From Sphingobacteriales bacterium 50-39 (lineage in GTDB: Bacteria; Bacteroidota; Bacteroidia; Chitinophagales; Chitinophagaceae), in assembly GCA_001898505.1 (NCBI GenBank), contig MKTZ01000004.1:62001-126000 (forward strand): a stretch of 64,000 bases of DNA, read 5' to 3'. The position numbers were made by a program, and so were the translations under genes. Shown in pieces: positions 4,048 to 47,298 of this stretch (the first letter of the stretch is position 1; each line of letters starts with the position of its first letter). The notes under the pieces were generated by a model. The model did not search any database and was not told the origin of the DNA. It was given only the letters and a program-made list of their open reading frames with translations.

Positions 4048-4089
4048 CAGAACGGGCCGGAGGCCCCTTGTCCGAAGGACAGACATTAA
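4048..4089 (+). repeat. Double-hairpin dispersed repeat, copy A
   Basis: This is the first of four related elements. Hairpin 1 has the stem GGGCC/GGCCC around GGA. Hairpin 2 has TGTCC/GGACA around GAA. The tail AGACATTA is shared with copies C and D. It fills the gap between the isomerase gene and the GH78 start at 4105. Compared with copy D, GG/CC in stem 1 is replaced by AA/TT, so pairing is kept while sequence changes. Function unknown; it could be an RNA leader, an attenuator or a REP-like element. Confidence 0.7.
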
Positions 4090-4104
4090 CACAAAACTCC
4101 CGAC

Positions 4105-6825
4105 ATGACCGATTGCATTTTCCATAACAAGATATATAGCATAGCCTTTGTCTTTTTAATTTTTTTGAGCTGTCCGGCCTTTGCTTATCCCGATCACAGC
4201 ACAGCTCGTTCTTCCAATGAAATAATGTCGCTGCAATGCGACAATGCCGTCGATCCGCTGGGTATCGACAACCGCACTCCCGAGTTCAGCTGGCAAGCGC
4301 GATCGGGTATGCGCAACTTCCGTCAGACGGCTTACCAGATAATAGTGGCCGACGCGCCGGAAAGGCTGGAAAGAGGAGTGGGCAATATCTGGAACAGTGG
4401 GAAGATATCTTCTGGCCAGTCGGCCGGGATCGTTTACAAAGGCATTCCCCTTGTCAGCCGAAAAGCATATTATTGGAAAGTGCTGGTATGGAGTACCGGA
4501 CAGCCCTCGCCCGTCAGGAGTGCGACGGCCCGTTTTGAAACGGCCCTGCTGCAGGAGTCCGACTGGAGCGGTGATTGGGTAGGATTTCCATCCGGCTGGA
4601 TAGGGAAAGTGCATTATTTCAGACGGGTGTTCTCTTTTCAAAAAGAGGTGGTCAAAGCAAGGGCTTATGTCGCGGGCATCGGGTACAGTGAAATGCAGCT
4701 CAATGGCAAGAAAGTGGGGGACCGGGTGCTTGATCCAGCTACAAGCAATTATAGCAAAACAGTTTATTATTCCACCTATGATATCAAAGATTTTTTGCGT
4801 AAAGAAAATGTGATGGTCGTTGCGGTGGCGCCCGGCTGGTACGGCATGCCCAAACTTCGGATGCAGATGGAATTCTATTTCGCCGACGGCACGATGGAGA
4901 CCATCAATTCCTCTTCCATCCGGAATGTCATGCTGGGGCCCGTCATTTCTGCCGGGATACTGGACGGCGAAGTGTATGATGCCCGGCTGGAGAAGCCGGA
5001 ATGGCTCCTGCCTTCGGACTCTATCATCAAGGAGCTCCCAGGTCCGGTATGGGCAGTAGCCCCGATTGTAGATGCGCCAGGAGGTAAAATGGCCGCACAG
5101 CAGCTGGAACCTATCCGGGTCGTCGATGCATTCGCCCCCGTGGTCATCAGGGAGCCGCGACCCGGCGTATTTGTTGTGGATGCCGGTCAGAACATGGCCG
5201 GTTGGGCCGCTATAAAGGTCAGAGGTAGTAAGGGCAGCCGCATTACCCTTCGTTTTGCAGAAACACTATATACCAATGGCACCGTCAACCAGGAGAACCT
5301 GCGCTCGGCAGCCGCCACAGACGTATATGTCCTTAAAGGAGAAGGCGAAGAACAATGGGAGCCGAGATTTACCTATCATGGCTTCCGTTATATCCAGGTG
5401 GAAGGCTGGCAGGGGAAACCCACCGTCGATGATTTTGTGATAAAAAAAGTACGCTCGGATGTAGCGCCGGCAGGAAAGTTTACTTGCAGCAACGACCTCC
5501 TCAACCGTATCAACCAAATGGTACAACGGACGGAAGCCAGTAACCTGCACAGCATTCCCACCGACTGTCCGCAACGGGATGAAAGAATGGGCTGGCTCAA
5601 CGATCTCACGGTGAGAATAGAGCAGGCCTTATACAACTTCCAATTACACCGGCTGTATGAGAAATTCATCCGGGACATTGATGATACACAAGGCGAAAAT
5701 GGTGAAATAGCGGATACGGCCCCGTATAAATATGGCGGGAAACCTGCCGACCCGGTGTGTGCCAGTTTTTTGCTGCTGGCGCTGAAGAGCTATGAATACT
5801 ATGGCAACATCGGGATCATCCAGCGAAACTATCCGCAGATGAAGGCCTGGGTAGACTATCTTACCACCCGCACTAAAAATGGTATTGTAGATTACAGCTA
5901 TTATGGGGATTGGGCGCCCCCCGCGGAGTTTGGGCAAAAAGAACAGGGTTATGGCGCCATCTCCCTCCATACACCGGGAGAATTGATGTCCACCGGATAT
6001 TTGTATTACAGCGCAAAGGTACTGTCGCAGCTTGCCGGCGCGATCGGTAATGCGGACGACGAGAAAAAATACGAGGACCTGGCTGCCCGTACGATGAGGG
6101 CATTCAATGATAAATACTGGGACGAAGAAAAAGGAGGTTATGGGACCAATAATCAATCCTGCAATTCATTTGCCGTTTTCCTGGGAGCTCCCGGTAAAGA
6201 AAGGCTGCCCAGGGTGATCGCCAACCTGGTGAGGGATGTAAAGGGGCATAACTACCACCTGACGACAGGGAATCTATGCACTAAATATCTCTTGGAGGCG
6301 CTTACAGAAAATGGAGAGACCGAAACAGCGTATAAGATCGCTACCCAGGTGACCTATCCCAGTTGGGGATATATGCTGGCCGAAGGCGCCACGACCTTAT
6401 GGGAACGTTGGGAATATGCCACCGGGGGATCCATGAACTCCCACAACCATCCCATGATGGGATCTGTAGGTTCATGGTTGTATAAATATTTATTAGGTAT
6501 TATACCGGATGCCGGGTACCCGGGTTTTGAAAGATTTGTGCTGCGCCCATATATTCCCGAAGATCTGCAATATGCAGATGGCTCTTACCAATCCGTCAAA
6601 GGGGAAATACGTTCTTCCTGGAGAAAAAAGAAGGGGACGCTGGAGTATCAGGTGAGCGTGCCCGCCAATTCAATTGCAACGGTATATATCCCTACAAAAG
6701 ACGTCCGATCCATAATGGAAGGCGGCCGGCGCATCACAAAAGATTGCAAGTTTCTGCGCATGGAAGGACTGGCTGCAGTATACGAAATAGGCTCCGGGGA
6801 TTATCAGTTCACCTCAAAATGGTAG
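4105..6825 (+). CDS. GH78 alpha-L-rhamnosidase, secreted
   Basis: This is a 906-residue glycoside hydrolase family 78 enzyme, which releases terminal alpha-L-rhamnose from pectic glycans or glycosides by inversion. An N-terminal hydrophobic segment (IAFVFLIFLSCPAFA) is a signal peptide. The domain order is N-terminal Ig-like fibronectin region, the Bac_rhamnosid_N beta-domain, a concanavalin-like domain, the (alpha/alpha)6 catalytic barrel and a C-terminal beta-sandwich. The catalytic acid is in TDCPQRDERMGW (about residue 491) and the general base in ATTLWERW (about 763). Length is typical. It is followed after 4 bases by a second GH78-containing gene, so the two are co-transcribed. Confidence 0.93.
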   Translation: MTDCIFHNKIYSIAFVFLIFLSCPAFAYPDHSTARSSNEIMSLQCDNAVDPLGIDNRTPEFSWQARSGMRNFRQTAYQIIVADAPERLERGVGNIWNSGKISSGQSAGIVYKGIPLVSRKAYYWKVLVWSTGQPSPVRSATARFETALLQESDWSGDWVGFPSGWIGKVHYFRRVFSFQKEVVKARAYVAGIGYSEMQLNGKKVGDRVLDPATSNYSKTVYYSTYDIKDFLRKENVMVVAVAPGWYGMPKLRMQMEFYFADGTMETINSSSIRNVMLGPVISAGILDGEVYDARLEKPEWLLPSDSIIKELPGPVWAVAPIVDAPGGKMAAQQLEPIRVVDAFAPVVIREPRPGVFVVDAGQNMAGWAAIKVRGSKGSRITLRFAETLYTNGTVNQENLRSAAATDVYVLKGEGEEQWEPRFTYHGFRYIQVEGWQGKPTVDDFVIKKVRSDVAPAGKFTCSNDLLNRINQMVQRTEASNLHSIPTDCPQRDERMGWLNDLTVRIEQALYNFQLHRLYEKFIRDIDDTQGENGEIADTAPYKYGGKPADPVCASFLLLALKSYEYYGNIGIIQRNYPQMKAWVDYLTTRTKNGIVDYSYYGDWAPPAEFGQKEQGYGAISLHTPGELMSTGYLYYSAKVLSQLAGAIGNADDEKKYEDLAARTMRAFNDKYWDEEKGGYGTNNQSCNSFAVFLGAPGKERLPRVIANLVRDVKGHNYHLTTGNLCTKYLLEALTENGETETAYKIATQVTYPSWGYMLAEGATTLWERWEYATGGSMNSHNHPMMGSVGSWLYKYLLGIIPDAGYPGFERFVLRPYIPEDLQYADGSYQSVKGEIRSSWRKKKGTLEYQVSVPANSIATVYIPTKDVRSIMEGGRRITKDCKFLRMEGLAAVYEIGSGDYQFTSKW

Positions 6826-6829
6826 TAGG

Positions 6830-9800
6830 ATGCGATACGCACTTATCGTTCTTTCTCTGTTGCCGGTCATGGTGTTTGCACAAAGCGCGCCGGAGACAGC
6901 GGCTAATAACACACCTGCCCGGACCGTGGGTATCGATCAGTTCGGTAGAAGTTTCGGCCCCATCGGCGGATATAAGCCCCAAAAACAGGTAGGGATCTTT
7001 TATTGGCCCTGGATCGGGCAGCCCTATGCGACGGGAGTATATGACGCCACCGCCATTTCCGCCAGGCCCAATGGACTTAAGCTGCTGTATGATTTCAAGT
7101 ATCTCAACGATAGCATTAGTCCCAACGGGCAGGCCCATTTTTGGGGTGAGCCGATATGGGGATATTATAACTCTGCCGACGAGTGGGTCATACGCCGACA
7201 GATGAAGATGCTTACCACGGCCGGTATCGACTTCATCGTTTTTGATCTTACCAACAGGGTGACCTACCGCAACGTGTACGAAAAAGTGCTGCGTGTCATC
7301 GAGGATCTTATCGCGCAGGGGTGGTCGCCCCCCAAAGTAGTTTTTTATACCCACTCCAGGTCATTCGAGACCGCTGAACAATTGTACCGGGAATTATATA
7401 AACCGGGTTTGTACCCCAAGGCCTGGTATCGAGTGGATGGCAAGCCCATGATCATCGCTTATACAAAAATGGAGGACGACGTGGCCGAAGCTCTTTCCCG
7501 TCGCGACAGCGCCTATAAACCCGTTCCGTATTCCGTGGAGCTGAAGGATTTCTTTTACTTTAAAAAACCGCAATGGCCTTTTGACAATACTTATGAGGAC
7601 GGCTTTCCCTGGGTGGAGTGGAAATATCCCCAGCCCCTGCACGGGAACATCATGAGTGTCACGGTGGCAAGTCATCCCAAGGTGCCCATGTCGCGTTCCA
7701 TTACTTCAGGATGGGTAAACTGGGGCCGTGGATGGGACCCGGCTACGCAGCAGAATAAAAAGGAAGATATCGACAGGGGAGGTTTTTTTCAAAAGCAATG
7801 GGACCATGCGCTGGAAGTGGACCCGGACACCGTCTTTGTCGGTGGATGGAATGAGTGGATAGCGTATAAGCAGCCCTACGGAGATGAATATATGCTGTGC
7901 GATGCCGCCAATAAAGAGTACTCCAGGGATATAGAACCCATGCGTGGCGGCTATGAGGATGCTTTCTATATACAGCTGATCAAAAACATCCGGCAATATA
8001 AAGGCATGCCCGATCTGTCCCCGGGCCATGCTCCCGTCACCATCGATATCAAAAGTGGGATAGATCAGTGGACCAGGGCAACGGCTGTGTACAGGAACAT
8101 AGACGAGAAGGCGGAAGGCCGCGACTATTATGGGGTCACTCAAAAAATAACCTATACCGTACCGCCGCCGGAAAATAGCTTACAGGAAATAAGGGTGGCC
8201 CATGACGCCGGCTATTTTTATTTCCTCATAAAGGCCGGCAGCGATCTTGTAAAGAATGACAGGCCCGGCGGAGCCATCCAGCTGCTCATCGGCAAGGACG
8301 ATCTGGCCATAAAAGGATGGAAGGGGTATGAATATGCTGTAGAACCCGACTACCGTACGGGCAAGGCAACGATCAGCCGTTTGGATGCGGATCATAAAAA
8401 AACGATGGTTGGGAAGGCAGATATCGTCGTGCGAGGAAATATAGTACAGTTTTCCATTCCCCGGCGGACGTTGCAGGCCGGTGCGGCTACGAGACAGATA
8501 TATTTCAAAGCAGCGGACGGCATAGCTCATCCTTCGGACATCATGGATTACTATCTTACGGGCAGCGCCATGCCCATGGGGAGGTTGAGCTATGTATATC
8601 GTCTCACCGGCGGCGCGGCTGCATCGCAGGTATATGCGCTTACGGTGGAGGGAAGGGATAGTTTGCTGGGTTCCGATGTCTCGCGTCCCCGTTTTAGCTG
8701 GAAGATACGTTCGGATGCCCGTAACCTGCGCCAATTGGCCTACCGGTTGTTGGTAGCTTCCAGTAAGACAGCGCTGGCAAAGGATGAAGCCGACATCTGG
8801 GACAGCGGCAAGATAGGGTCGGATGCATCTTTGGACATCGTTTACAACGGCAAGCCGCTGGTCGCTCATCGCGCTTATTATTGGAAGGTGAAGATCTGGA
8901 CCAGCAGCGGGGAGGAAGTAACGAGCCCAACGGCATATTGGAGTACGGGATTCCTACAGCCCTCCGGGTGGCATGCCAAATGGATAGGCTTGAATAGTTT
9001 TAATGCATACGATCAGCCGGACAGCACGTTTACCCGTCTGGCGGCCAGACATCTTCGCAAGGAATTTTCCGCGGATAAAAAGATCAGCTCCGCAACAGCT
9101 TATATCAGCGGCATGGGCTTGTATGAACTTTACCTCAACGGAAAAAAGGTAGGAGTGGATGTATTGGCGCCTACCGTATCGGAATATGACAAAAAGGTAT
9201 ATTATAACACCTATGATGTTGCCGGGTACTTGCAGCCGGGTGCCAATTGTATAGGGGTCATAGTTGGCAACGGCCGTTTTTTCGGCATGCGCAATTATCA
9301 CGGCAAACCTGACCCGCTCACCGGCATACCACAACGCGGCTACGGGTTACCTAAGGTGTTATTACAGGTGCGCCTACAATACACGGATGGATCGGTGGCC
9401 TGGGTCAACTCGGATGAAAGCTGGAAGGTTACGGGCAACGGGCCCATAGTATCGAACAGCGAATTTGACGGAGAAGAATACGATGCCAACAAGGAGCTCA
9501 CCGGTTGGAATAACCCGGGCTATGACGATCGGGGGTGGAAAACGGTCCAGCCGATGCCGTCCGGCAATGCGCGGGTCGCAGCCCAGCCCAATGAGAATAT
9601 CCGTGTCAGGGAGGTGCTACACCCTATATCCGTACACACGACTTCCCGTGGGTCTTATATTTTGGATATGGGCCAGAATATGGTGGGCTGGCTTGCCATC
9701 AAGGTAAAAGGGCAGAAAGGGGATACCATCCGGATGCGTTTTGCAGAAACGATGAAGGGGAAGGACTCTCTCTATCTCGCCAATATGCGGAACGCCCGTG

Positions 9801-11320
9801 TCACCGATAAATATATTTTGAAAGGGGGTGGGGAGGAGGCATGGGAGCCGAGATTTACCTACCATGGCTTCCGCTTTGTGGAAATTGAAGGACTGAGAAA
9901 CCCACCGGATCCAAAAGATCTTGAAGGCAAAGTGGTCTATGATAATGTACCCACCATCGGGTCGTTGCGAACTTCCAATGCTACGATCAATGCCGTGTAT
10001 AAGAATGCATATTGGACCATACGGGGTAACTACCGGGGTATGCCTACGGATTGCCCGCAACGGGACGAGCGGGTGGGGTGGTTAGGCGATAGGGTGATCA
10101 GCTCCTATGGGGAAAGCTTTTTGTTCGACAATTCCCGCCTGTATGCAAAATGGCTGGATGATATACGTGATGCACAAAAAGAAAATGGGAGCCTGCCGGA
10201 TATAGCGCCCAGCTTTTGGGACAGGTATGCGGACAATGTAACTTATCCCAGCGCCTTTATCCTGATACCCGACATGCTGCGCAGGCAGTTTGGAGATCAG
10301 GAGAGCATTAAAAAGCAATATCCCGCCATGAAAAAGTGGGTATTGTATATGTGGGATACCTATCATGACAATGACCTTGTGCTGAAAGACAATTATGGCG
10401 ACTGGTGCGTGCCGCCTGAATCATTGGACCTCATCTGGACGAAAGACTCCAGTCGTATGACAGAGGGCGGGTTGCTGGCGGCTGCCTACTATTACCATTG
10501 TTTGGGATTGATGAAACAGTATGCCGCTATGCAGGGGTTGCGTGCCGACGAGGAAAAGTTTGAGCGCATCGCCGGAAGAGTGCAGACGGCTTTTAACAAA
10601 CGATATTATCACAACGATACGCGATCCTATGCCAACAATACCGTGACGGCTAATCTGCTGCCCCTGTATTTTGGGTTAGCGCCTGCTGCCGACAGACCGG
10701 CCATCTTCCAGAACATCCGGCGGCGGCTGAAGGAATTCGACGATCATGTGAACTCGGGTATCATTGGAGGAATGTGGCTGATGCGCGGCCTGACGGAAAA
10801 TGGCGCATCCGATCTGGCATATAAGCTGGCTACCAATACAACCTATCCCAGTTGGGGATATATGGTAGGAAAAGGAGCTACCACCATCTGGGAACTGTGG
10901 AATGGAGATGCAGCCAACCCCATGATGAATTCGGGCAATCATCAGATGCTGCTGGGTGATCTGCTGGTATGGTATTATGAGTACCTGGCTGGTATCAGGA
11001 CGGACGATAGGCAAGTGGCCTTTAAAAAGATTATCATGGATCCCATATTTCCGGAGGGGCTTGACTTTGTGAAAGCATCGTTGGATACGAAATACGGGAT
11101 GATAAAAAGTGAATGGAGGAACACGGGTGGGACACTGGAGTGGGCTATCACGGTGCCTCCGAATACGACAGCTGAGGTTTCATTGCCTGGCGACGTAAAA
11201 AATATGACGGAAGGCGGGAGGCCATTGGCGGCGATGATGCAAAAAGCCAGGACCCGTCCGGATGGGAGGACGGTATTCCTGCTTGGCTCCGGCAGCTACC
11301 GTTTCGTCGTAAAAAAATGA
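6830..11320 (+). CDS. Fusion of GH71/99-like domain, DOMON/CBM9-like domain and GH78 alpha-L-rhamnosidase
   Basis: This is a 1496-residue secreted protein (signal peptide MRYALIVLSLLPVMVFA). Residues about 30-400 form a glycoside hydrolase 71/99-like barrel (GIFYWPWIG, DFIVFDLTN, and a GGWNEW motif near 337 with the likely catalytic Glu). Residues about 405-590 resemble the DOMON/CBM9-type beta-sandwich that binds carbohydrate. From about 600 the chain repeats a complete GH78 enzyme, with its acid in CPQRDERVGW (about 1078) and base in TTIWELW (about 1350). Such parts are usually separate secreted proteins, so this looks like a gene fusion joining two glycosidase activities. The GH71/99-like substrate is unknown. 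It overlaps the kinase gene by 4 bases (ATGA). Confidence 0.88.
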   Translation: MRYALIVLSLLPVMVFAQSAPETAANNTPARTVGIDQFGRSFGPIGGYKPQKQVGIFYWPWIGQPYATGVYDATAISARPNGLKLLYDFKYLNDSISPNGQAHFWGEPIWGYYNSADEWVIRRQMKMLTTAGIDFIVFDLTNRVTYRNVYEKVLRVIEDLIAQGWSPPKVVFYTHSRSFETAEQLYRELYKPGLYPKAWYRVDGKPMIIAYTKMEDDVAEALSRRDSAYKPVPYSVELKDFFYFKKPQWPFDNTYEDGFPWVEWKYPQPLHGNIMSVTVASHPKVPMSRSITSGWVNWGRGWDPATQQNKKEDIDRGGFFQKQWDHALEVDPDTVFVGGWNEWIAYKQPYGDEYMLCDAANKEYSRDIEPMRGGYEDAFYIQLIKNIRQYKGMPDLSPGHAPVTIDIKSGIDQWTRATAVYRNIDEKAEGRDYYGVTQKITYTVPPPENSLQEIRVAHDAGYFYFLIKAGSDLVKNDRPGGAIQLLIGKDDLAIKGWKGYEYAVEPDYRTGKATISRLDADHKKTMVGKADIVVRGNIVQFSIPRRTLQAGAATRQIYFKAADGIAHPSDIMDYYLTGSAMPMGRLSYVYRLTGGAAASQVYALTVEGRDSLLGSDVSRPRFSWKIRSDARNLRQLAYRLLVASSKTALAKDEADIWDSGKIGSDASLDIVYNGKPLVAHRAYYWKVKIWTSSGEEVTSPTAYWSTGFLQPSGWHAKWIGLNSFNAYDQPDSTFTRLAARHLRKEFSADKKISSATAYISGMGLYELYLNGKKVGVDVLAPTVSEYDKKVYYNTYDVAGYLQPGANCIGVIVGNGRFFGMRNYHGKPDPLTGIPQRGYGLPKVLLQVRLQYTDGSVAWVNSDESWKVTGNGPIVSNSEFDGEEYDANKELTGWNNPGYDDRGWKTVQPMPSGNARVAAQPNENIRVREVLHPISVHTTSRGSYILDMGQNMVGWLAIKVKGQKGDTIRMRFAETMKGKDSLYLANMRNARVTDKYILKGGGEEAWEPRFTYHGFRFVEIEGLRNPPDPKDLEGKVVYDNVPTIGSLRTSNATINAVYKNAYWTIRGNYRGMPTDCPQRDERVGWLGDRVISSYGESFLFDNSRLYAKWLDDIRDAQKENGSLPDIAPSFWDRYADNVTYPSAFILIPDMLRRQFGDQESIKKQYPAMKKWVLYMWDTYHDNDLVLKDNYGDWCVPPESLDLIWTKDSSRMTEGGLLAAAYYYHCLGLMKQYAAMQGLRADEEKFERIAGRVQTAFNKRYYHNDTRSYANNTVTANLLPLYFGLAPAADRPAIFQNIRRRLKEFDDHVNSGIIGGMWLMRGLTENGASDLAYKLATNTTYPSWGYMVGKGATTIWELWNGDAANPMMNSGNHQMLLGDLLVWYYEYLAGIRTDDRQVAFKKIIMDPIFPEGLDFVKASLDTKYGMIKSEWRNTGGTLEWAITVPPNTTAEVSLPGDVKNMTEGGRPLAAMMQKARTRPDGRTVFLLGSGSYRFVVKK

Positions 11321-13955: not shown

Positions 13956-14001
13956 CCCCTAACTTCGGCGGCCGAACGCATCTTATTGCGTGGATCAATT
14001 T

Positions 14002-14463
14002 ATGTCCGCTGAAAAGAATTTTACCGCACTGGGATTACAATTGCCCCCCGCACCTACGCCAATGGGGGTGTACAAACCATGTTTAACAGATGGGAAATAT
14101 TTGTATGTGTCCGGGCACGGTCCGTTGCTGGAGGATCGCTCCCTGATCACTGGCCGTGTGGGCGAGGACCTGGATATCGAGCAGGGGAAACTGGCTGCGC
14201 GGCAGGTGGGGCTGGCGATACTGGCTACGATACGGGAGAACCTGGGTAGCCTCGACAAAGTGAAGAGAGTAATAAAAGTATTGGGGATGGTGGGCTGCAC
14301 GCCTGCGTTCGACCGGCATCCATACGTCATCAATGGGTGCAGCGAGCTGTTTGCCGCCGTGTGGGGCGAAGACAACGGGGTAGGGGTGCGCAGTGCCGTG
14401 GGGATGGGATCATTACCCAACAATATTCCTGTTGAGATAGAGGCTTTGTTTGAACTACATTAA
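14002..14463 (+). CDS. RidA/YjgF-family enamine/imine deaminase
   Basis: This is a Rid-superfamily protein of about 153 residues. The conserved C-terminal stretch GVRSAVGMGSLPNN followed by IPVEIEALFEL and the early LYVSGHGPL segment are family hallmarks. RidA proteins hydrolyse reactive enamine/imine intermediates released by PLP-dependent dehydratases, preventing damage to other PLP enzymes. It ends 11 bases before a PLP enzyme with a dehydratase-like metal site, so the two probably work in series. A GTG at 13990 would extend it by four residues; the ATG at 14002 fits the family better. The 46-base gap before it holds a palindromic TTCGGCGGCCGAA. Confidence 0.87.
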   Translation: MSAEKNFTALGLQLPPAPTPMGVYKPCLTDGKYLYVSGHGPLLEDRSLITGRVGEDLDIEQGKLAARQVGLAILATIRENLGSLDKVKRVIKVLGMVGCTPAFDRHPYVINGCSELFAAVWGEDNGVGVRSAVGMGSLPNNIPVEIEALFELH

Positions 14464-14474
14464 AATACCTTTTT

Positions 14475-15605: not shown

Positions 15606-15639
15606 ACCTTTTGTCGACCGACCTATCTCAGAGTCTTAC

Positions 15640-24504: not shown

Positions 24505-24546
24505 CAAAACGAACCAACGGTTCGTTGGCCGAAGGCCAATCATTAG
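24505..24546 (+). repeat. Double-hairpin dispersed repeat, copy B
   Basis: Hairpin 1 is AACGAACC/GGTTCGTT around AAC, a perfect 8-bp stem. Hairpin 2 is TTGGCC/GGCCAA around GAA, where the other copies have TGTCC/GGACA, a paired change in both arms. The tail reads TCATTAG. It lies in the leader of the hybrid two-component gene. A further small hairpin (GGACC/GGTCC, 24482-24495) precedes it. Confidence 0.65.
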
Positions 24547-24550
24547 CCAT

Positions 24551-24597
24551 TTTGCCCGGGCAGACTAATTTTTTTGATCAGGCTGACCGGGCAAATA
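24551..24597 (+). repeat. Long imperfect inverted repeat in the HTCS leader
   Basis: TTTGCCCGG-x-CAG-x-C (24551-24565) is inverted at 24583-24597 (ending CCGGGCAAA), with two mismatches and a loop that includes a run of seven T. It directly follows repeat copy B and lies about 90 bases before the start codon of the sensor gene. It may act as a terminator protecting the sensor gene from upstream reading, or as a leader structure. Confidence 0.5.
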
Positions 24598-24685
24598 CAA
24601 TTTACGGATTTTTTACCAATTTTTTTTCATTATTTGCATGGTTCCAAAACTAGCCTGCCGGCCATTTGCCGGAGGAAAAGGCATA

Positions 24686-31841: not shown

Positions 31842-31860
31842 CCAGACGGGGAATGTCTGG
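31842..31860 (+). repeat. Small inverted repeat upstream of susC
   Basis: CCAGAC and GTCTGG pair around GGGGAAT in the 286-base interval before susC. It may be a weak terminator of the GH31 gene or part of the susC leader; there is no T-tract. Confidence 0.3.
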
Positions 31861-31883
31861 ATGACATTTCATGCTCTATTATT

Positions 31884-31924
31884 AGGAACCGCTGGAAGCG
31901 GTTCGTCCGAAGGACAGACATTAG
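31884..31924 (+). repeat. Double-hairpin dispersed repeat, copy C
   Basis: Hairpin 1 is GAACCGC/GCGGTTC around TGGAA. Hairpin 2 is GTCC/GGAC around GAA. The tail is AGACATTAG, followed by GATAT and CGGGAA shared with copy D. It sits in the leader of susC, about 110 bases before the ATG. Stem 1 differs wholly in sequence from copies A and D but folds alike. Confidence 0.65.
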
Positions 31925-32036
31925 CGATATGCGGGAATTGGGCTATTTTTCCAGGCGAGACCAATTCACGCACTTTACTCTCCACGAATAAGACAATCAA
32001 TTTCTGCTTTTGCTTAATACCAATAACAATTGCTAC

Positions 32037-35000
32037 ATGAAAAAAACAAGTATTAAAAATGTGACAGGAAGGGCGATGATGCTGGCCCTGGCCTTCATCG
32101 TTTTTTTGCATCTTCCGGGTCTATCGCAGACCGGCACCGTCACGGGTAAGGTCGTCGCCGGACAGAACGATAGTACGATGGCGGGTGTCACGGTGCGTGT
32201 GAAGGGAGGCAATACCAGCACCATAACGGCTGCCGATGGATCTTTTACCATCAAGGCGGGACCGAATGCCGTGTTGATCTTCTCTAATGTGGGTTTTGCT
32301 ACACAGGAAGTAGCGGTCAACAATCGTAGTAACTTATCTGTCCGGCTGGCAACGGATGCGCAGGCCCTTCAGGGCGTGGTGGTCATCGGCTATGGTACGG
32401 TGAAACGCAAGGACCTGACAGGGTCTATTGCCAGCGTATCGGCCGAGCAGATCGCAAAGGTGCCCATTGCCAGCCTGGAGCAGTCCCTGCAGGGGCGTGC
32501 GGCGGGTGTACAGGTTGTCAGCAATGACGGCTCACCGGGCGCGAATACTACCGTGCTGATACGTGGCGTGGGAAGTCTGGCCAGTGGTGGTAACAATCCT
32601 TTATATGTGGTGGATGGCTACCCTCTCACCGGAGGGATCAATAGCATCAATCCCAATGACATCGCCAGCATCGATGTATTGAAGGATGCATCGGCAACGG
32701 CCATCTATGGTATCCGCGCCGCCAATGGGGTAGTGATCGTGACGACGAAGAAAGGCAAAAAGGGGGCGATGGAAGTTTCTTTGGATGCCTATACTGCCTT
32801 CCAGATGAGGCCCAAAAAATACAAGCTCCTGAATGCGCAGGATTGGGCTACTTTGTCCAATGCCGTAGAGGCGGCAGATTCCACGCATACTTATGTAGGA
32901 TTGCCCATCTGGCATACACCCAGCGCCCTGCACACCGTGGACTGGCAGGATGCGTTGTTCCGCAGCGGTCTGTCGCAAAATTACAGCCTGGGTATCCGCG
33001 GCGGCTCCGACAAGGTGCAGACGTCTGTATCTTTTGGATATTATAATCAGAAAGGCATCCTCATCGGAAGTTACTTCAAAAGGGGCACCCTGGGACTGGG
33101 ACTGGATTATCAACCTGTCAAATGGCTGAGATCCTCCACTAACGTGAAGTATGCTTACCAGAATGCCAATGGCAATCCATTGTCCATGGGAGGACTATCT
33201 CAACTGGCGATAAACCCACCTACGCTGGACAGCGGCAATCGGAATACGTATCTGATAAAAGACGGGAACGGGAATTATGGTTTTTACAATCCTGTCAATT
33301 CCAATATATTCAAGTTCAACAACCCGGTATATTCCATCGAGACCAACCGTTATTCCAATGTAACGAACTGGATCCTGGCCAGCAGCTCGCTGGAGGTCTC
33401 TCCCTTCGACGGGCTTAAGATCAAGACCAATGCGGGTGTCAATATGAGCTACTACACTGGCTCCTATTTCTCACCGGAAGATACCCGGGCGGCGCAGCAA
33501 TATCCCAGCGCCATCTCAGCTACAGCGCTTTATTCCTTCCACCAGAACAATAACTTTGAATGGCTTTGGGAGAACACCATCGCCTATGACAAGACCTTTG
33601 GAAAGCATACCATCAATTTTGTCGGTGGTATCTCGGCTCAGAAGAATACCAATACACTGGTGGGTTACTCAGGCATTCCACCGAATGCTATCATCACCGA
33701 CCTGGGGCAGATGTCTAACGTGAAATACGACCAGTATGGCAACGGCCAGATCATCACGACCCTGGAATCCCAGTTCGGCCGTCTGACCTATACTTTCGAC
33801 AACAAATATATCATTACCGGTACGGTGAGAAGGGACGGTTCCTCCAAGTTCGACGTAGGGCATAAATATGGTGTATTCCCCTCCGGCGCTGTTGCCTGGA
33901 AGGTGAAGGAAGAGGAGTTCCTGCAATCCGTCAACTGGCTCTCCGATCTGAAACTGAGAGGCAGCTGGGGCGAAGTGGGTAACCAGACAGCCATCGGGCC
34001 TTATCAATATGCGGCGCTATATACGTATGGCGGGCCGGCGAACCTGAATGGGGGTGGAGTCGACAACCTGGGATATCCATTTGGTAAAATATACCAGGGC
34101 GGCATCGCGCAATCCCAGCCGGCGAATCCCGGTCTCAAATGGGAGACGGACAAGCAGACCGACATCGGTGTCGACATGGCTTTCCTGCAAGGGGCGCTGA
34201 CCTTTACGGCCGACTGGTTCACCAGGGATTCAAAGGACTTCCTGCTGAATCTGGCGGCTCCTCAGCAGTCCGGGTATCTCCTTATCACCCGCAATGTGGG
34301 AAGCATGAACAATAAAGGCTTGGAGTTCGCCGTGAACTATCGGGGTAATAAGGGCAGGGATTTTCAATATGGAATAGGGCTGACCGTCTCTTCCTATAAG
34401 AATACGCTGACCAGCATCACTTCCGGGACCAATTATGTGACCAATTTCGGGGGTGTGACCTTAACGGGACAAAGCTGGGACGAGTTCACCCATTCCAATG
34501 TGGGAGGACCTGTCGGTGAGTTCTACGGTTATAAATCCCTGGGTGTCTTCCAGTCACAGGCGCAGATCGACGCCCTGAATGCCAAGGCGCCCGGAGGTGT
34601 TTATCAGCGGGCAACGAATCAGCCTGGCGACCGCTATTTTGCCGATGTCAACGGTGATGGCAAGGTAGATGCGACCGACAGGACGGCTCTCGGTAATCCG
34701 CAGCCGAAATTCTTTGGCGGGCTCAACTTCGATGCATCGTATAAACAGTGGGATATCAATCTCTATTTTTATGGCACCTACGGGAACAAGATACTGAACT
34801 ATATCGAGAGCGACCTGGAAAGCTTCCAGAAGCGTGGTTCTGAAGGGGTGGAGAATGTCAGTCAGACATATTACCAGAACCGCTGGACGCCCACGAATCA
34901 TTCCAACCGCTATTCCCGTGCTACGGCCAATGACGACGCCATCGGCAGCAATGTTCCTTCGAGCGTCTGGATCGAGAACGGCAGCTATCTGAAATTAAGG

Positions 35001-37006: not shown

Positions 37007-37032
37007 GATTGGAGGTGTAAAATATTTACCAG

Positions 37033-37067: not shown

Positions 37068-37084
37068 AATATTATCTTGCAGTT

Positions 37085-40645: not shown

Positions 40646-42309
40646 AGGCAGTGATCGTTATTTTGCTGAACCAGCTGGGGTTTTATATTCATTCTCCCAA
40701 GATCGCCATTGTCACCGGTGAGCCATCTTCGGCTGTATTTTATATCGTGCATGTTTCCGGTGGGGATACGGTTTATTCGGGGACATTGGGACCTGCTGTT
40801 GCCTCGTCCAATTCATCTTTACGGACATATGAGGCTGACTTTACTGCCGTGGATAAGGAAGGAGACTACAAGGTCGTCGTGCCCGGAGCAGAGAGTTCCT
40901 TTGCTTTTCATATCGGGCGGCATATGGCGTCGCCTGTAGTAAGGGCCGCCCTGAAGGGTTATTATTATCAGCGGAGCGGCATGGCTTTGGATGAACGCTA
41001 TGCGGGCGTATGGCATCGTCCGGCAGGTCACCCGGATACTGTGGTGCTGGTACATCCATCGGCTGCTTCGGAAGGACGTCCTGCGGGAACTATCATCTCT
41101 TCACCCGGCGGGTGGTACGATGCCGGAGATTATAACAAATATATTGTCAACTCGGGGATCACGATGGGTACCTTGTTGTCGGCGTATGAGGATTTTTCCA
41201 GGCTGTACGACACGTTGCATACAAATATTCCGCCGATGAGCGGTGTGCCTGATCTGCTCAACGAATGTCTCTATAATTTACGGTGGATGCAGACCATGCA
41301 GGACCCCGGGGATGGAGGGGTATATCATAAGTGTACAAACGCCACCTTTGACAGCATGGTAATGCCGGGTGTTACGAAGCTGCCAAGATATGTCGTACAA
41401 AAGGGGACTGCAGCAACACTGGATTTTGCAGCTGTCATGGCGCAGGCCGGCAGGGTCTTTAGAAAATTCTCCCGTCAGCTGCCCGGACTGGCCGATAGCT
41501 GTCTGCGTGCTGCGCAGGCTGCCTGGGGATGGGCTGTCCTGCATCCTGCTGTCGTATATAATCAGATGGCGATGAACAGAAGCTTTAGCCCCGCCGTAAC
41601 GACCGGCGCTTATGGGGACATAGATATGCGGGATGAATGGTATTGGGCCGCTGCCGAACTGTCGGTGACGACGGGAGGGGAAGCGTTTACGGATACTGTA
41701 CTGGCGCGGATGAAAGACCCGTATGGGCTACCCACCTGGAGCAGTGTGCATATGCTGGGGGATTATACGTTGCTGCGTCATCCCGGTGTTCTGCCGGCGA
41801 GGGAAATGAAGTCCTTACGGGAGCACCTTTTAACCGTGTCTGATAATTATCTGAAGCTGGCGCAGTCCAATGCATTTCACACCGTGATGGGGACGGGTGC
41901 GCGGGATTATGTCTGGGGCAGCAATTCCGTGGCGGCCAACCAGGGCGTCCTGCTGATAAATGCTTTTTTGTTAACAGGGGAGCGGAAATACGTCGATGGG
42001 GCTGTCGGTAATTTGGACTATTTGCTGGGGCGGAATGCTACGGGATATTGCTTTGTAACAGGAATAGGCAGTCGAAGCCCTATGCACCCTCATCACCGGC
42101 CCAGTGTCGCGGATGGGATTGTCCCGCCTGTACAGGGGTTGCTGGTAGGAGGTCCCAATCCGGGGAGGCAGGATCGTCAGATATATGCAATGACCGAACC
42201 GGAGACGGCGTACCTGGATAATGACAGGGCCTATGCATCCAATGAGATAGCTATCAACTGGAATGCTCCGCTGGTGTATCTGGCGGGGGCGATAGAGGCC
42301 CTTCATTGA
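40642..42309 (+). CDS. GH9 glycoside hydrolase (endoglucanase/xyloglucanase-like)
   Basis: This 555-residue enzyme has an N-terminal Ig-like CelD_N domain (NQLGFYIHSPKIAIV) and a GH9 (alpha/alpha)6 barrel. The nucleophile-activating Asp pair lies in GWYDAGDYNKY (about 158), a conserved His in HPHHRPS (about 481) and the proton-donor Glu in YASNEIAIN (about 534). GH9 enzymes cut beta-1,4-glucan chains, including xyloglucan. The start is the ATGA overlap with the preceding gene, and the CelD_N fold begins at once, so no normal signal peptide is seen. Export or a mis-set start is therefore open. Confidence 0.9.
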   Translation: MKAVIVILLNQLGFYIHSPKIAIVTGEPSSAVFYIVHVSGGDTVYSGTLGPAVASSNSSLRTYEADFTAVDKEGDYKVVVPGAESSFAFHIGRHMASPVVRAALKGYYYQRSGMALDERYAGVWHRPAGHPDTVVLVHPSAASEGRPAGTIISSPGGWYDAGDYNKYIVNSGITMGTLLSAYEDFSRLYDTLHTNIPPMSGVPDLLNECLYNLRWMQTMQDPGDGGVYHKCTNATFDSMVMPGVTKLPRYVVQKGTAATLDFAAVMAQAGRVFRKFSRQLPGLADSCLRAAQAAWGWAVLHPAVVYNQMAMNRSFSPAVTTGAYGDIDMRDEWYWAAAELSVTTGGEAFTDTVLARMKDPYGLPTWSSVHMLGDYTLLRHPGVLPAREMKSLREHLLTVSDNYLKLAQSNAFHTVMGTGARDYVWGSNSVAANQGVLLINAFLLTGERKYVDGAVGNLDYLLGRNATGYCFVTGIGSRSPMHPHHRPSVADGIVPPVQGLLVGGPNPGRQDRQIYAMTEPETAYLDNDRAYASNEIAINWNAPLVYLAGAIEALH

Positions 42310-42317
42310 AGGGCCTC
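42295..42317. terminator. Bidirectional hairpin overlapping GH9 stop codon
   Basis: GAGGCCCTTCA and TGAAGGGCCTC are exact inverses separated by one T. The TGA of GH9 is part of the right arm. It sits between the convergent GH9 and DUF1080 genes. Only short T-rich sequence follows, so a terminator is probable but not certain. Confidence 0.6.
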
Positions 42318-42326
42318 TATAATGAT

Positions 42327-43142
42327 TTACAGTGGTCTTACCCAGATATTACGGTAGCTGATGGGTTCGCTTTTATCTCCATGCGCCTGCAATTTGATGG
42401 GAGAGGGGCCATGTGCTTTATAAAAAGGTTTGCCAACATAGCGGGTGCCGCCTTTGAGCTCGAAGTTATTTTGTACCAGGACGCCGTTGTGGAGCACGGT
42501 GACGCGGGCGGGGGAAGCGAGACTGCCGTCAGTGTGGAATACCGGAGCTGTCCAGATGACATCGAAGCTCTGCCATTCGCCTGGTTTGCGGCAGGCGTTA
42601 GCCAGTGGGATAGATTGTTTGTAGATGCTGCCAACCTGGCCGTTGACATATGTCTTGTTATTATAGTTGTCCAGTACCTGCAGTTCATATCCATCGTCGC
42701 CCTTGCCGGTGCTGGCGAGGAATATTCCGCTGTTACCTCTGGCCTGATCAGATCCTGTGATGTTGGAGGGGATCCTGTATTCGATGTGCAGCTGATAGTT
42801 GGAGAAGGATGCTTTTGTCTGGATATTACCTCCTTTTTTATCGACGGTGAGGATGCCATCGGCGACAACCCATTTTGCCGGGCTGCCATCGTTGACGGAT
42901 ACCCAGCTGTCGAGGTTTTTTCCATCAAAGAGGATGGTTGCGTCGGAGGGGGCGTCGCCGCATGTTGTGCCTGGGGTTACCACGGGTGGCACGGGGCTGT
43001 ATACTTCGGTGGCCCTGTGATCGGTGATGGTGTCGGTCTGGGCGTGGGCTGCTGAAACGGTTCCGAGGAAGCCAAAAGCTGAGAGTACGAAAACCCTTCC
43101 GGCGGATCTGGCAGAAGGACAAGCAATGGAGGTTATGTTCAT
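42327..43142 (-). CDS. DUF1080 (3-keto-disaccharide hydrolase-type) secreted protein
   Basis: This protein has about 271 residues with a signal peptide (FVLSAFGFLGTVSAAHAQ) and a DUF1080 concanavalin-like lectin/glucanase fold (ATILFDGKNLDSWVS, GNSGIFLAS, GYELQVLDNYNNKTYVNGQ, YRNIWVRPL). DUF1080 members include hydrolases of 3-keto-glycosides, and others of unknown function. It is convergent with the GH9 gene and may belong functionally to the polysaccharide locus. The ATG at 42142+1000 (43142) is preferred over one seven codons upstream. Confidence 0.85.
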   Translation of the reverse strand: MNITSIACPSARSAGRVFVLSAFGFLGTVSAAHAQTDTITDHRATEVYSPVPPVVTPGTTCGDAPSDATILFDGKNLDSWVSVNDGSPAKWVVADGILTVDKKGGNIQTKASFSNYQLHIEYRIPSNITGSDQARGNSGIFLASTGKGDDGYELQVLDNYNNKTYVNGQVGSIYKQSIPLANACRKPGEWQSFDVIWTAPVFHTDGSLASPARVTVLHNGVLVQNNFELKGGTRYVGKPFYKAHGPSPIKLQAHGDKSEPISYRNIWVRPL

Positions 43143-43222
43143 GTGAATTAATTGAGGGTACAATTTAAAAAAAAAATTGGAATTGGGGATGTTGTGTCAA
43201 GAATTTGAATTTACAATAGTAT

Positions 43223-43729
43223 TTACACGTTGGAACTAATTTTGTCATAAAGCTCTCTTCCTATTCGTTTCACTTCCAGTTTGATATTATTGGTGTATTC
43301 GCGATCTTGAAATTGAATATCGACATCCTCCCCAACTATTTCTGCACCAATATAGCTGACACGATTGGGTACCATTTACAACTGAGATTCAGCACCGGGC
43401 CAGCATATGGCAAACGGAGAGAGTAGCCGAATTCGTCCGAATGCCCATGACCTTGCCTTACCAACGACAACAATACCCCGTTTAAAAACATACAGGTCTG
43501 CCAAGTTATAAACATACAGAGATTTTAATGGATCAATTTGAAACCGATTTGCCTTTTTTAGCATGTCATATCCTTTAAACCATATTTTGACATCTGTATA
43601 TTTAATTGCGTCTCCAGGAAGAAGCTCAACGATTCTTTTGGCCTTCTTCTCAATGGTAGTGTACATGAATAGAAAAAACAGAAACGGTGTTGGCAGAAGT
43701 ATTATCAAAAAGAGCATATAAAGAATCAT
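43223..43729 (-). pseudogene. Uncharacterised membrane-anchored protein interrupted by an in-frame stop
   Basis: The first part (43376-43729) encodes 117 residues: an N-terminal membrane helix (YMLFLIILLPTPFLFFLFMY) and a soluble segment with AIKYTDVKIWFKGYD and a GRIRLLSPFAI end. After TAA at 43376-43378 the same frame continues with ATG and 49 more codons (MVPNRVSYIGAEIVGEDVD, then IQFQDREYT, LEVKRIGREL) before a TAA at 43223. The continuing part looks like the natural C-terminus of the same protein. It is either a nonsense-broken gene or two short coupled ORFs. No function is recognised, and the region is AT-rich. Confidence 0.5.
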
Positions 43730-43864
43730 GGAGAGTAAGTTAAAGCATTTTTTAATTCATCTAATTCAGAAGAACAAAATTCGTCTCGTTGGGGACGTGA
43801 TGTTTTTCTTCCCCTTACATTCCCATCCACAGGAGGAAGAGCAGGATAGATGACTTGATAATGA

Positions 43865-43985
43865 CGCGTCAGGGATTGAAGTGAAAGGCCCGGAGGTAAG
43901 GGACGCACCGAGGACTTGTAACGGAAAGCCCGCCCCGAAGGGGGCGCCCTGGAAGCCTGGCCGGGCCAGAAGACGCCTACATAAT
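43865..43985 (+). ncRNA. Candidate structured noncoding element (GC-rich)
   Basis: Two similar direct half-units occur, AGGGATTGAAGTGAAAGGCC at 43871 and AGGACTTGTAACGGAAAGCC at 43911. They are followed by hairpin CGCCCC-GAAG-GGGGCG (43931-43946) and inverted repeat CTGGCC-G-GGCCAG (43957-43969). The stretch is much richer in GC than its flanks. An antisense reading frame here (43726-44001) has no family signature and is probably spurious. The element may be an RNA gene, a repeat, or a remnant; I believe similar units occur scattered in Bacteroidota genomes but cannot confirm it. It occupies most of the gap 43730-44082. Confidence 0.4.
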
Positions 43986-44082
43986 TGGCGAGAGCCTGCA
44001 AAATCCAGACATGTTAAAAAAAGGGTATAAAATTATCATGGTTTTTTCCCCATAATACGATAGCTTGTGCCATCCCCGGAAA

Positions 44083-44415
44083 ATGAGCAATAAAACGATC
44101 TTTTTTGGTTATATCAGCTTTTTAAGAGAGAAGGTCGATGCTGCCATCCATGTAATGAAGCGGAGACCGGGCGACTACCTCTGGATATGCTTCAATCCCT
44201 CCCGCATTGTGCAAGACGGCCCCACCGAGATGCACCCTAACATGAGTTTTTCCATCATACTCGATACGGATGATAAGAATGATATCGTGACGGATATAGA
44301 AAATGTCGTCAGACAGCTGCCATTTTTATCCTGCACATTGGTGGTCGAGGATCTCTCCACAAGGGAGCAAATCGTCCATAAATGGGAAAACCTAAGCTCG
44401 GCTACTCTGTCCTAA
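44083..44415 (+). CDS. Hypothetical 110-residue protein
   Basis: This small soluble protein begins MSNKTIFFGYISFLREKVD and continues with DYLWICFNPSRIVQDGP. It includes predicted alternating strands and helices, with no signal peptide, membrane segment or recognisable motif. Codon use looks ordinary for the region. An in-frame start six codons upstream (44065) is less likely. The neighbouring transglycosylase gene is 72 bases away and may be separate. No function can be offered. Confidence 0.55.
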   Translation: MSNKTIFFGYISFLREKVDAAIHVMKRRPGDYLWICFNPSRIVQDGPTEMHPNMSFSIILDTDDKNDIVTDIENVVRQLPFLSCTLVVEDLSTREQIVHKWENLSSATLS

Positions 44416-44487
44416 GCCTATGATTTACATTATTTTGTGATCTGGCATCCTGCTTGAAATTATCGGTCGGCCTTAAAACTATCAACT

Positions 44488-45234
44488 ATGTGGACTTCCG
44501 TAACATCCAGGATCGGAACTTGCTTAATGATTTCACTCATTATCTCCAAACCTGTCGACAGCAGGAACAATGGAGTTGCTCTTCATGCTGCAGAGAGAAG
44601 CGTAGTGCCCATGAACATGCATGTGCGTCAGTTCGTCAAAGATTATATCAGGGACAATAACGAGATATTGTGTATAGTGCGACGCAGGAGCAAGTATGCC
44701 TTCCGCGTGATAGATTCTGTGCTGACCCATTATGGACTGCCGAAGGAGATGAAGTATCTGGCGGTGATAGAATCCGAGCTGAATCCGAAGGCTTTGTCTG
44801 CGGTGGGAGCAAGGGGCCCCTGGCAGCTGATGCCGGAGACGGCGCAGGAATTAGGCCTGAATGTTACACCCGACTGGGATGAGCGTATGCTGTATGGTAA
44901 GAGTACGGCGGCTGCAGCCAAATATCTGAGGGATCTTTATAGTGAGTTTGGGGATTGGCTGTTGGTGCTGGCAGCGTATAATAGCGGTCCCGCGCCGGTG
45001 TATCGCGCCATTCGCAAGTCAGGCAGCAGGAACTTCTGGTGCCTGGAAAAATATCTGCCCGCTGAAAGCAGGGATCATGTCAAAAAATTTATTGCCTCTC
45101 ATTATTATTTTGAAGGAAATGGCGGTGTGACTACACTGACCAGGACGGAATGGGCCGCTTATATGGATCATGTGCATCCTTCTCCGCAGCGTTTGATCCC
45201 GGGAACTGCGAATGCGCAGTATGCGTCGTTCTAA
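44488..45234 (+). CDS. Lytic transglycosylase (SLT domain) protein
   Basis: This is a 248-residue protein with a soluble-lytic-transglycosylase core (about 80-200). The catalytic Glu is in AVIESELNPKA (about 95), followed by GARGPWQLMPETAQELGL and AAYNSGP, all hallmark motifs. It cleaves peptidoglycan glycan strands with formation of 1,6-anhydro-muramyl ends. The N-terminus has a moderately hydrophobic stretch (CLMISLIIS) that could serve as a signal segment. No LysM domains follow, making it shorter than MltD-type enzymes. It converges with purE across 16 bases. Confidence 0.88.
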   Translation: MWTSVTSRIGTCLMISLIISKPVDSRNNGVALHAAERSVVPMNMHVRQFVKDYIRDNNEILCIVRRRSKYAFRVIDSVLTHYGLPKEMKYLAVIESELNPKALSAVGARGPWQLMPETAQELGLNVTPDWDERMLYGKSTAAAAKYLRDLYSEFGDWLLVLAAYNSGPAPVYRAIRKSGSRNFWCLEKYLPAESRDHVKKFIASHYYFEGNGGVTTLTRTEWAAYMDHVHPSPQRLIPGTANAQYASF

Positions 45235-45250
45235 GATGGACGTTAGAAGA

Positions 45251-45790
45251 TCAGGCGTTATCAAACCCATTCGCCCACCCATCTTTCTTTAGCAGCTCTA
45301 CCTTCTTGAGCACTTCTTTTTCCAGTTTGCCTTTGAACGCCGCAACCTTAACACTGACCAGGGGATCGAAGGCGCCGATGATGGAGGCTGCAAGGATACC
45401 CGCGTTCTTGGCGCCGTTGAGGGCTACCGTGGCTACCGGGATGCCACCCGGCATTTGAAGGATGGACAGGACCGAGTCCCAGCCGTCGATGGAATTGGAG
45501 GATTTGATGGGGACGCCGATGACCGGAAGGGGGGTGATGGAGGCGACCATGCCCGGCAGATGGGCTGCTCCGCCTGCGCCGGCGATTATGGCCTTTAAAC
45601 CTCTGCCCGCCGCCTGGCTGGCGTATTCCACCATCCGGAGGGGAGTGCGGTGCGCAGAGACGACCGTGAGCTCGAAGGGTATCTCAAATTCGCGCAGCAC
45701 ATCCGCTGCGGCCTGCATGACAGGAAGGTCGCTGTCGCTGCCCATGATGATGCCTACGAGGATGGTATCTGCTGCCTGTGTCTTTGCCAT
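45251..45790 (-). CDS. purE: 5-(carboxyamino)imidazole ribonucleotide mutase PurE
   Basis: This 179-residue enzyme of purine synthesis converts N5-CAIR to 4-carboxy-AIR. Signature segments are [43 protein letters not shown] and [17 protein letters not shown]. It works with PurK, encoded 7 bases upstream on the same strand, so the two form a purKE operon. Length and all motifs are typical for the class I mutase. Confidence 0.96.
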
Positions 45791-45797
45791 GCCTGTC

Positions 45798-46922
45798 TTA
45801 TTTACTTATGACCTTCAATGTGTTCTTTATCTTATGAGCCTTGTAGACAAGGTCGTGTTTTTCTCTGCTGATGATAGTGATGTGTCCCATTTTGCGGCCG
45901 GGACGTGTCTCGTTCTTGCCATAGATGTGGACGAATACATTGTCCATTTGCAGGACCTCATCCAGTCCTTCATAAACCGCTTCGCCGCTGTGTCCTTCCG
46001 CACCTAATAAATTGACGATGGCAGCCGGCAGGATGGCGGCGGTATTGCCCATGGGATAGCCAAGGATGATCCTCCACAACATGTCGAACTGGGAGCTGTA
46101 ATTCCCTTCGATGGTATGGTGTCCGCTGTTATGGACGCGGGGGGCCGTCTCATTGACGTATACGTCTCCCTGTTTGTTGATCAATAGCTCTACGGCAAAA
46201 ATGCCGGGGCTGGCCAATTCTTTTACTACGCGCATGGCGATAGCTTCGGCCTTCCACAGGGTCTGCTGCGGAAGGTCGGCAGGGCTGAGCTGGTAATCGA
46301 GGAGATTGAGACGGGGATCGAATACCATGTCGATGGCAGGGTAAATGACTGTCTCGCCCCGGTTGCCGACGGCTACCAGCATGGAGATCTCTTTCTCCAC
46401 GCTGATCATTTTTTCCAGCACTCCCGGGGCATCGAATCCTTTGTCAAGATCTTCTTTTGTCTTTATCATCTGGACGCCACGACCATCATAGCCGCCCATA
46501 CCAATCTTATGTACGGCGGGGAGAAAATGGTCTTTGCTGCGGAGCTCGTCCTTGTTCTGTGTGACGAGGAATTCCGCGGTGGGTATGCTATTGCCGGAAT
46601 AGAATTGTTTTTGTGTGATCTTGTTCTTGATAGTGCGGAGGGCGGAAGGTTTGGGATAGATCTTTACGCCTTCGGACTCCAGTTTTTCCAGTGCGTTTTC
46701 GTTGACCGACTCTATCTCGATGGTCAGGGCATTTAGTCCTTTACCAAAATTGTATACGTCATCAAAGTTCCGGATGTCCCCTTTGACAAAATGATGGCAT
46801 AAATGGGCAGCGGGACATTGCTCATCATTTTCCATTACAAATGTTTCGACAGGATAATTTGCTGCGGATTGCAACAACATTCTACCTAGCTGACCACCCC
46901 CTAAGATTCCGACTCGTAACAT
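45798..46922 (-). CDS. purK: 5-(carboxyamino)imidazole ribonucleotide synthase PurK
   Basis: This protein has about 374 residues of the ATP-grasp family. It carboxylates AIR with bicarbonate and ATP. Signature segments are the N-terminal [28 protein letters not shown] and [15 protein letters not shown]. An in-frame ATG at 46976 would add 18 residues before the conserved N-terminus, so 46922 is preferred. It is the first gene of the purKE operon. Confidence 0.95.
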
Positions 46923-47256
46923 GCTGGTTATTTGGGCCGAAGATAGGACATTGGCCCGAAACCACCGCAATAACAAGCCTGCCGCTACGTTTTGAAAGAA
47001 GAGACAGTTCCATTTCGTCCATGAAGAAGGGGACTCTGTCCCTTATTCCGATTGGAAATCATAAAATTAGCGGTACCTTGCACTCGAATAATATGCGTCC
47101 TGATTATATCCATAAAATTTTCGATGACAAGCGTTTGTGCTACTTCCTTCTTATGGAAGCGCTTGCCATGGATACGCCCCTGTAACGGTATCATTCCTAA
47201 CTGCCCCTTTTTTGTTTTTGCAATACCAGGTCCGCCTCAGCAGTCCATGCAGGCGT
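46923..47256. other. Intergenic region between purK and hpd, hairpin-rich
   Basis: Between the divergent purK and HPPD genes there are over 440 bases without a credible gene. The interval shows an inverted GGGCC/GGCCC pair (about 46934-46957), and a strong hairpin AAGGG-GAC/GTCCCTT around 47024-47042. It should also hold the purK promoter. Short open frames on both strands (for example 46985-47194) have no family features. Confidence 0.4.
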
Positions 47257-47298
47257 CAGAACGAACCGGAGGTTCGTTGTCCAAAGGACAGACATTAG
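47257..47298 (+). repeat. Double-hairpin dispersed repeat, copy D
   Basis: Hairpin 1 is AACGAACC/GGTTCGTT around GGA (8 bp), hairpin 2 TGTCC/GGACA around AAA, tail AGACATTAG and then ATAT and CGGGAA as in copy C. It lies in the leader of the HPPD gene, about 70 bases before its ATG. It is the closest match to copy A in order, length and tail. Confidence 0.7.

Follow-up and report, generated by a model that had tools for sequence, protein, structure and literature searches.

A 64,000-nucleotide stretch of the genome of Sphingobacteriales bacterium 50-39, a member of the Chitinophagaceae (contig MKTZ01000004.1, positions 62,001 to 126,000; hereafter the window), carries four copies of a small palindromic repeat, all on the plus strand and each ahead of a plus-strand gene. 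A sequence-only reading had placed these copies before genes for GH78, HTCS, SusC-like and HPPD proteins and described each as two adjoining hairpins with a common tail. Positions, strand and neighbours are all borne out, and so are the first two hairpins and the tail resembling AGACATTA, but the two-hairpin unit is only part of the element, since copies 2, 3 and 4 carry a third hairpin. Copy 1 (4048-4089, 44.3 bits against the covariance model used below) is a short form without hairpin 3, with hairpin 1 at 4051-4069, hairpin 2 at 4070-4080 and AGACATTA at 4081-4088; it has one mispair near the foot of stem 1, and lies 16 nt before the ATG at 4105 of the GH78 gene, an alpha-L-rhamnosidase by Pfam. 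The full-length copy 2 (24505-24600, 77.5 bits) has hairpin 1 at 24508-24526, hairpin 2 at 24527-24537, AATCATTA at 24538-24545 and hairpin 3 arms at 24551-24563 and 24583-24595, with the loop box TAATTTT at 24566-24572, and precedes a hybrid two-component (HTCS) gene by Pfam, whose open reading frame (ORF) runs from 24638. Copy 3 (31883-31978, 98.2 bits), also full-length, has hairpins 1 and 2 at 31886-31904 and 31905-31915, AGACATTA at 31916-31923, hairpin 3 arms at 31930-31941 and 31961-31972 and the box TATTTTT at 31944-31950; the SusC-like gene that follows (TonB-plug by Pfam) is listed from a TTG at 32010, with an ATG at 32037. Copy 4 (47257-47351, 84.6 bits), full-length as well, has hairpins 1 and 2 at 47260-47278 and 47279-47289, AGACATTA at 47290-47297, hairpin 3 arms at 47306-47318 and 47331-47343 and the box TACATTT at 47318-47324, and lies 5' of the HPPD gene (47366-48499, Pfam).

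The full element is about 96 nt long and consists of hairpin 1 (8 bp), hairpin 2 (GTCC-GAA-GGAC), AGACATTA and hairpin 3; the short form, of about 46 nt, has the same 5' end and stops just past AGACATTAG. Hairpin 3 was found by lining up genome matches, among which its arms vary yet stay complementary and its loop starts with TAnnTTT. Both ends of the full form are sharp: across 78 full copies the information content is about zero outside the element, climbs from model position 4 and drops near position 99, and the flanks are almost without conserved letters. In the 44 short copies measured, conservation is lost 1-2 bases past AGACATTA, and a classifier placed 46 of 145 genomic copies in the class lacking hairpin 3. 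A common ACATTA 3' terminus of both forms was considered and dropped, a loose version of it being matched by 21 of the 78 full copies. Nine matches of 147-157 nt (L122-L130) contain an additional GC-rich stretch of about 50 nt at or after hairpin 2, with shorter cases in L222 and L224.

That the stem arms change together with pairing kept, as the sequence-only reading had proposed from four copies, is supported both in the own genome and in others. The own-genome alignment comprised 49 copies, namely window copy 2 and 48 of 87 aligned copies picked by eye for hairpin 3, a choice that biases the pairing of helix 3 upward and of which helices 1 and 2 are independent. Across 26 named pairs, 91.7% of cells are paired compared with 71.6% in shuffles (0 of 500 as high), 21 of the 26 pairs show changes on both sides, and slid registers pair only 31-47%. 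Among 63 distinct copies from other genomes, in an alignment fitted to the model, double changes occur in 24 of the 26 pairs. Covariation of the stems is thus strong. In the 49 own-genome rows, loop columns 69-70 are T without exception and the interval from CATTA to the box is gapless. Whether selection acts on RNA or DNA is not settled by the wobble pairs, which are rare: without fitting, and after exclusion of one column pair that pairs poorly, mispaired cells comprise 30 G-T and 23 A-C, whereas the alignment of other species, fitted to the model, gives 38 and 8.

The element is far from being a set of four. In the 7.9 Mb host genome, which belongs to the GTDB genus of Puia dinghuensis, a pattern search allowing up to two mismatches matched 51 times in forward and 39 times in reverse orientation, where a reversed control pattern matched 1 and 0 times, and the covariance model matched 145 of 150 scored candidates at E<=0.001; since these 150 were drawn from 2242 first-look candidates, 145 is probably a lower bound. 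Ten of 23 same-genus genomes hold the element, with 2 to 103 matches each (105 candidates scored per genome). A family sample yielded matches in four of 147 genomes, or two of 100 genera: the own genome, G011 and two genomes of a second genus, the latter with 26 and 12 matches among 28 scored candidates each. It was found in none of 15 genomes from other families of the order, and an order sample gave two matching genomes of 298, own included, a negative of low sensitivity because 13 candidates were scored per genome. The exact 19-base core occurs in 42 named stretches, every one from Puia dinghuensis (strain CGMCC 1.15448 has copies) or from metagenome-assembled genomes (MAGs) of Chitinophagaceae, Chitinophagales or Bacteroidetes. 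No element was found in the viral collection, and one full copy had no match in the plasmid and phage collections. Rfam gave no match at gathering score in the window, and seven loci searched at E<=1 gave only tRNAs and sub-threshold matches, two of which place a miRNA model on hairpin 3 of L326 with 26 bits, where the cut-off is 100. No paper describing the element was found among those listed in searches of the open-licence PMC library. The sequence-only reading had staked its view of a structured element on copy number, on pairing in relatives and on the absence of a known transposon end, and the view stands on each: copies are many, relatives keep the pairing and the search turned up no such end. 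In one MAG, the element is repeated head to tail at contig ends, with a period of 91-92 bp (L172 1-300, L154 6675-6929).

Occupied and empty sites in relatives show that the element is dispersed and mobile. The HPPD copy (copy 4) is missing at nine of nine syntenic loci of relatives, all of which include 1467 nt or more of sequence on the upstream side and have the end of the same upstream gene no more than 260 nt away; a tenth genome searched gave no HPPD match. In recF, a 60-nt in-frame insert is present in the own genome only, 1 of 28 comparable rows, the 27 relatives being without it (two further rows were unaligned at the insert site). Seventeen of the 145 copies lie inside predicted genes, 12 antisense and five sense; open frames continue through these copies, some of which lie at gene ends, and proteins of the HATPase_c, DinB, Sua5 and DUF2480 types have split or stretched Pfam matches. 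Short copies are in excess inside genes (12 of 46, compared with 5 of 99 full copies, P=5e-4). Three copies (L032, L225, L054) lie in frame and antisense in the apparent ATPase domains of three different histidine kinases, with Pfam support for L032 and L225 only.

The remaining 128 copies are intergenic, 43 in divergent, 73 in unidirectional and 12 in convergent gaps, as judged with an in-house hexamer caller rather than a standard one, so that starts are approximate. Relative to the element strand, the orientations of upstream and downstream genes are (+,+) for 57 copies, (-,-) for 16, (-,+) for 43 and (+,-) for 12. The position in gene leaders claimed from the window extends to the genome as a strong bias towards sense orientation just upstream of genes: co-directional gaps hold 57 sense and 16 antisense copies (P=1.5e-6), and 24 and 8 in other species (P=0.007; of 61 matches, 49 are intergenic and lie between two called genes). 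A start codon lies within -10 to 50 nt of the 3' end of 47 copies and of the 5' end of nine (P=2.6e-7), a contrast reached by none of 20000 random strand flips; within 100 nt the counts are 66 and 23. In divergent gaps, 30 copies are nearer the gene they face and 13 nearer the other gene. Copies inside genes do not favour the sense strand (5 of 17 in the own genome, 3 of 5 in other species), making a replication-strand insertion bias unlikely. Comparing orientation by presence of hairpin 3 was dropped because short copies were too few. Forty-two genes start within 60 nt downstream of full copies, among them the core metabolism genes hisG, hemE and quinolinate phosphoribosyltransferase; the 20 scanned by Pfam have unrelated functions (aminotransferases, symporter, cyclophilin, UvrA, URO-D, HisG, CtaA, QPRTase and others), two giving no match. 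Copies also lie between clustered tRNA genes, antisense to them (L034, about 2125-2380), and directly ahead of a tRNA-His gene (L063, about 2250).

Among described repeats, the closest likenesses are with repetitive extragenic palindromic (REP) sequences and Correia elements. In the excerpts of PMC3733652 that concern them, REPs of the GTAG and CGTC superfamilies are likewise high-copy palindromes with copies inside genes, including repair genes, and with ends near or supplying stop codons, the CGTC type being without a known transposase. As presented there, however, they measure 20-40 bp, compared with three hairpins and 96 nt here, and lie mainly in convergent or unidirectional gaps downstream of genes, unlike the start-side element of the Puia type. 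The unpaired GTAG or CGTC tag is also absent: the 5' end reads CA[G/A] followed by hairpin 1, and CGTC occurs only within paired hairpins 1 and 2 of part of the copies. Nor is the transposase gene RAYT flanked by the repeat, as REPs would have it. Correia elements of Neisseria, in the portion of PMC10969869 that treats them, share small size, mobility, more than 120 copies, a location mostly upstream of genes and promoter sequences within the element; the Puia-type element differs in showing neither terminal inverted repeats nor target duplication, in an unrelated host and in a promoter that is only predicted. BrickBuilt of Porphyromonas, named in the same excerpts as a same-phylum miniature inverted-repeat transposable element (MITE) with promoter-like sequence, is alike by that description only, the Puia-type element being without the MITE end features tested. 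Rickettsia palindromic elements, according to parts of PMC10969869 and PMC3733652, are palindromic inserts in frame within conserved proteins, a habit shared by some copies here, whereas the Puia-type element is mostly intergenic, its full copies being rarer in genes than the short ones. The element thus behaves like the REP or Correia type but departs from REPs in tag, location and RAYT association and from MITEs in showing no terminal inverted repeats, and it is best placed among small palindromic mobile repeats, as a new family.

Bacteroidetes promoters recognised by sigma-ABfr have TTTG at -33 and TAnnTTTG at -7 (PMC7366714, in the sections that define the consensus). In 192 element-free upstream regions of the host genome we counted 66 TAnnTTTG boxes, compared with 15.2 in shuffles that preserve single-base content only and 39 on the reverse strand; among the 54 with enough upstream sequence, TTG starts 22-24 nt upstream in 14, with few at other offsets, and TTTG in 10, a pattern in keeping with the sigma-ABfr consensus. 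In the element, TTAG starts 23 nt before the box, giving TTAG-N19-TAnnTTT, and the median distance from box to start codon is 63 for 67 copies (estimated) and 68 for the 66 native boxes. The spacing and the TAnnTTT core are thus common to the element and the sigma-ABfr promoter of those sections, a suggestive match; the differences are TTAG, a final base mostly C or T, and a box placed at a hairpin loop. Matches to sigma-70-type promoters near copies were not used, that consensus differing from the one reported for this phylum. Judged from its letters, the element may carry a promoter, at odds we would put somewhat below even.

Taken together, we read the four copies as members of a high-copy, non-coding, REP-like mobile DNA family of Puia-type Chitinophagaceae, possibly with a promoter, and give this reading, conditional steps included, a probability of about 0.66; the mobile REP-like identity taken by itself we hold to be very probable. 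The element would move as a folded single strand through an enzyme acting in trans, and the full form would bring a promoter-like module, with TTAG at the -33 position and, after N19, TAnnTTT as a -7 box in the hairpin 3 loop. Insertions beside a start codon would be tolerated when the module faces the gene, so that similar promoters could spread to unrelated genes. A bolder version, which we consider improbable, would make hairpin 3 a mobile DNA-structure promoter: supercoiling would extrude the hairpin and show the -7 box at its loop, at near-fixed spacing from TTAG, and a non-Y1 enzyme would carry the folded promoter to some hundred unrelated genes and so rewire expression separately in each species, with stems free to vary as long as pairing, loop box and spacing are kept.

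Several observations weigh against the reading of a mobile repeat with promoter. No mobiliser was identified. The element has TTAG, not TTTG, and the base after its box is C or T in 74 of 87 copies, the G of TAnnTTTG appearing in five. Of 99 full copies, 63 have an intact TTAG-N18-21-TAnnTTT module, and a greedy pattern search found the CATTA-to-box spacer to be 20 in 65 of 82 full copies and 19, 21 or 22 in the other 17. The native control is suggestive only, because the looser TTG-N17-23-TAnnTTT is nearly as common on the reverse strand of native regions (23) as on the forward strand (27). Proximity to a start codon does not make the box better kept (37 of 43 copies, compared with 50 of 56 in other positions), so its function may lie in movement and not in service to the host. 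Although they lack the box, short copies lean to the start side as well, by 7 to 1 within 50 nt and 9 to 6 within 100.

The sequence-only reading had left the choice between an RNA leader, an attenuator and a REP-like mobile element, of which the last proves the better option. A cis-acting leader or attenuator, in which the three hairpins fold in the 5' untranslated region and control the downstream gene, would account for sense orientation near start codons and for the excess of G-T over A-C in the fitted alignment. We nevertheless find it unlikely as the main identity: that excess falls to 30 against 23 in the unfitted rows and wobble is rare, the 20 scanned genes have no common theme, Rfam gave no matching family for the window or the seven loci searched, copies sit inside predicted genes on both strands, and the HPPD gene lacks its copy at all nine relatives' loci. 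A repeated terminator or insulator of upstream genes is hardly tenable. It could draw on the strong hairpins and on 32 upstream stop codons within -10 to 50 nt of the element's 5' end, but the genes upstream are almost evenly split in orientation (69 to 59), convergent gaps contain no more than 12 copies, four of them nearer the 5'-side stop, and no terminator-like site lies inside the three full window copies, the one site found (31842-31860) being outside.

As to the kind of mobile element, size, copy number and position would fit an ordinary MITE, derived by deletion from a DNA transposon and marked by inverted repeats at its termini and by duplication of the target; Correia elements, in the same portion of PMC10969869, are also promoter-bearing and upstream of genes. 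A MITE is very unlikely nonetheless, for among the 78 full copies terminal inverted repeats scored 7.01 matches of 12 against 6.77 in one mispaired control and no offset had a convincing excess of target duplication, the recF site being ambiguous by eye. A classical REP family moved by RAYT, a Y1 HUH transposase, seems quite unlikely too. The own genome has a tandem RAYT-like gene pair (C11; L022 779-1312 and 1444-2037), of which one gene matches Y1_Tnp and the other is a divergent paralog without Pfam match and, by eye, without the HxH motif. Such a pair occurs in all 11 element-bearing genomes of the genus (own and 10 relatives), the intact gene having 59-84% identity in relatives, and 13 element-free genomes of the genus, several of them incomplete, have no RAYT match above 35% identity. 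The recF tree, however, includes nine of these 11 genomes and unites them in one clade (97/98 support, with long outgroup branches), so that the match between RAYT and element may reflect a single event. The second genus holds the element, yet neither genome has a Y1_Tnp match at E<=0.001, and both are also absent among the genomes listed with a match to the own RAYT. Eleven RAYT loci, taken with flanks of up to 1.5 kb, contain a single element between them, and related RAYT genes are present in 90 genomes of the family sample, of which only the own genome and G011 have the element. On the strength of the recF clade and the second genus, RAYT was set aside as mobiliser.

If the mobile REP-like reading is right, a soil Bacteroidota lineage carries a structured mobile element family for which no existing label was found, which would offer a direct test case for small mobile repeats rewiring promoters and would raise the question of which enzyme moves the repeat where no Y1 transposase is detected.

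Two further observations concern single genes. A second Y1_Tnp gene in the own genome (C25; L021, about 1478-1905) lies, by eye, between an apparent DAHP synthase/chorismate mutase gene and aroB, and could possibly be a domesticated transposase in an aromatic-acid operon. In the window, the two adjoining ORFs at 4105-11320, the first of which is the alpha-L-rhamnosidase, have diverged direct repeats in common (6301/10790 and 5316/9802), which suggests that they are paralogous genes.

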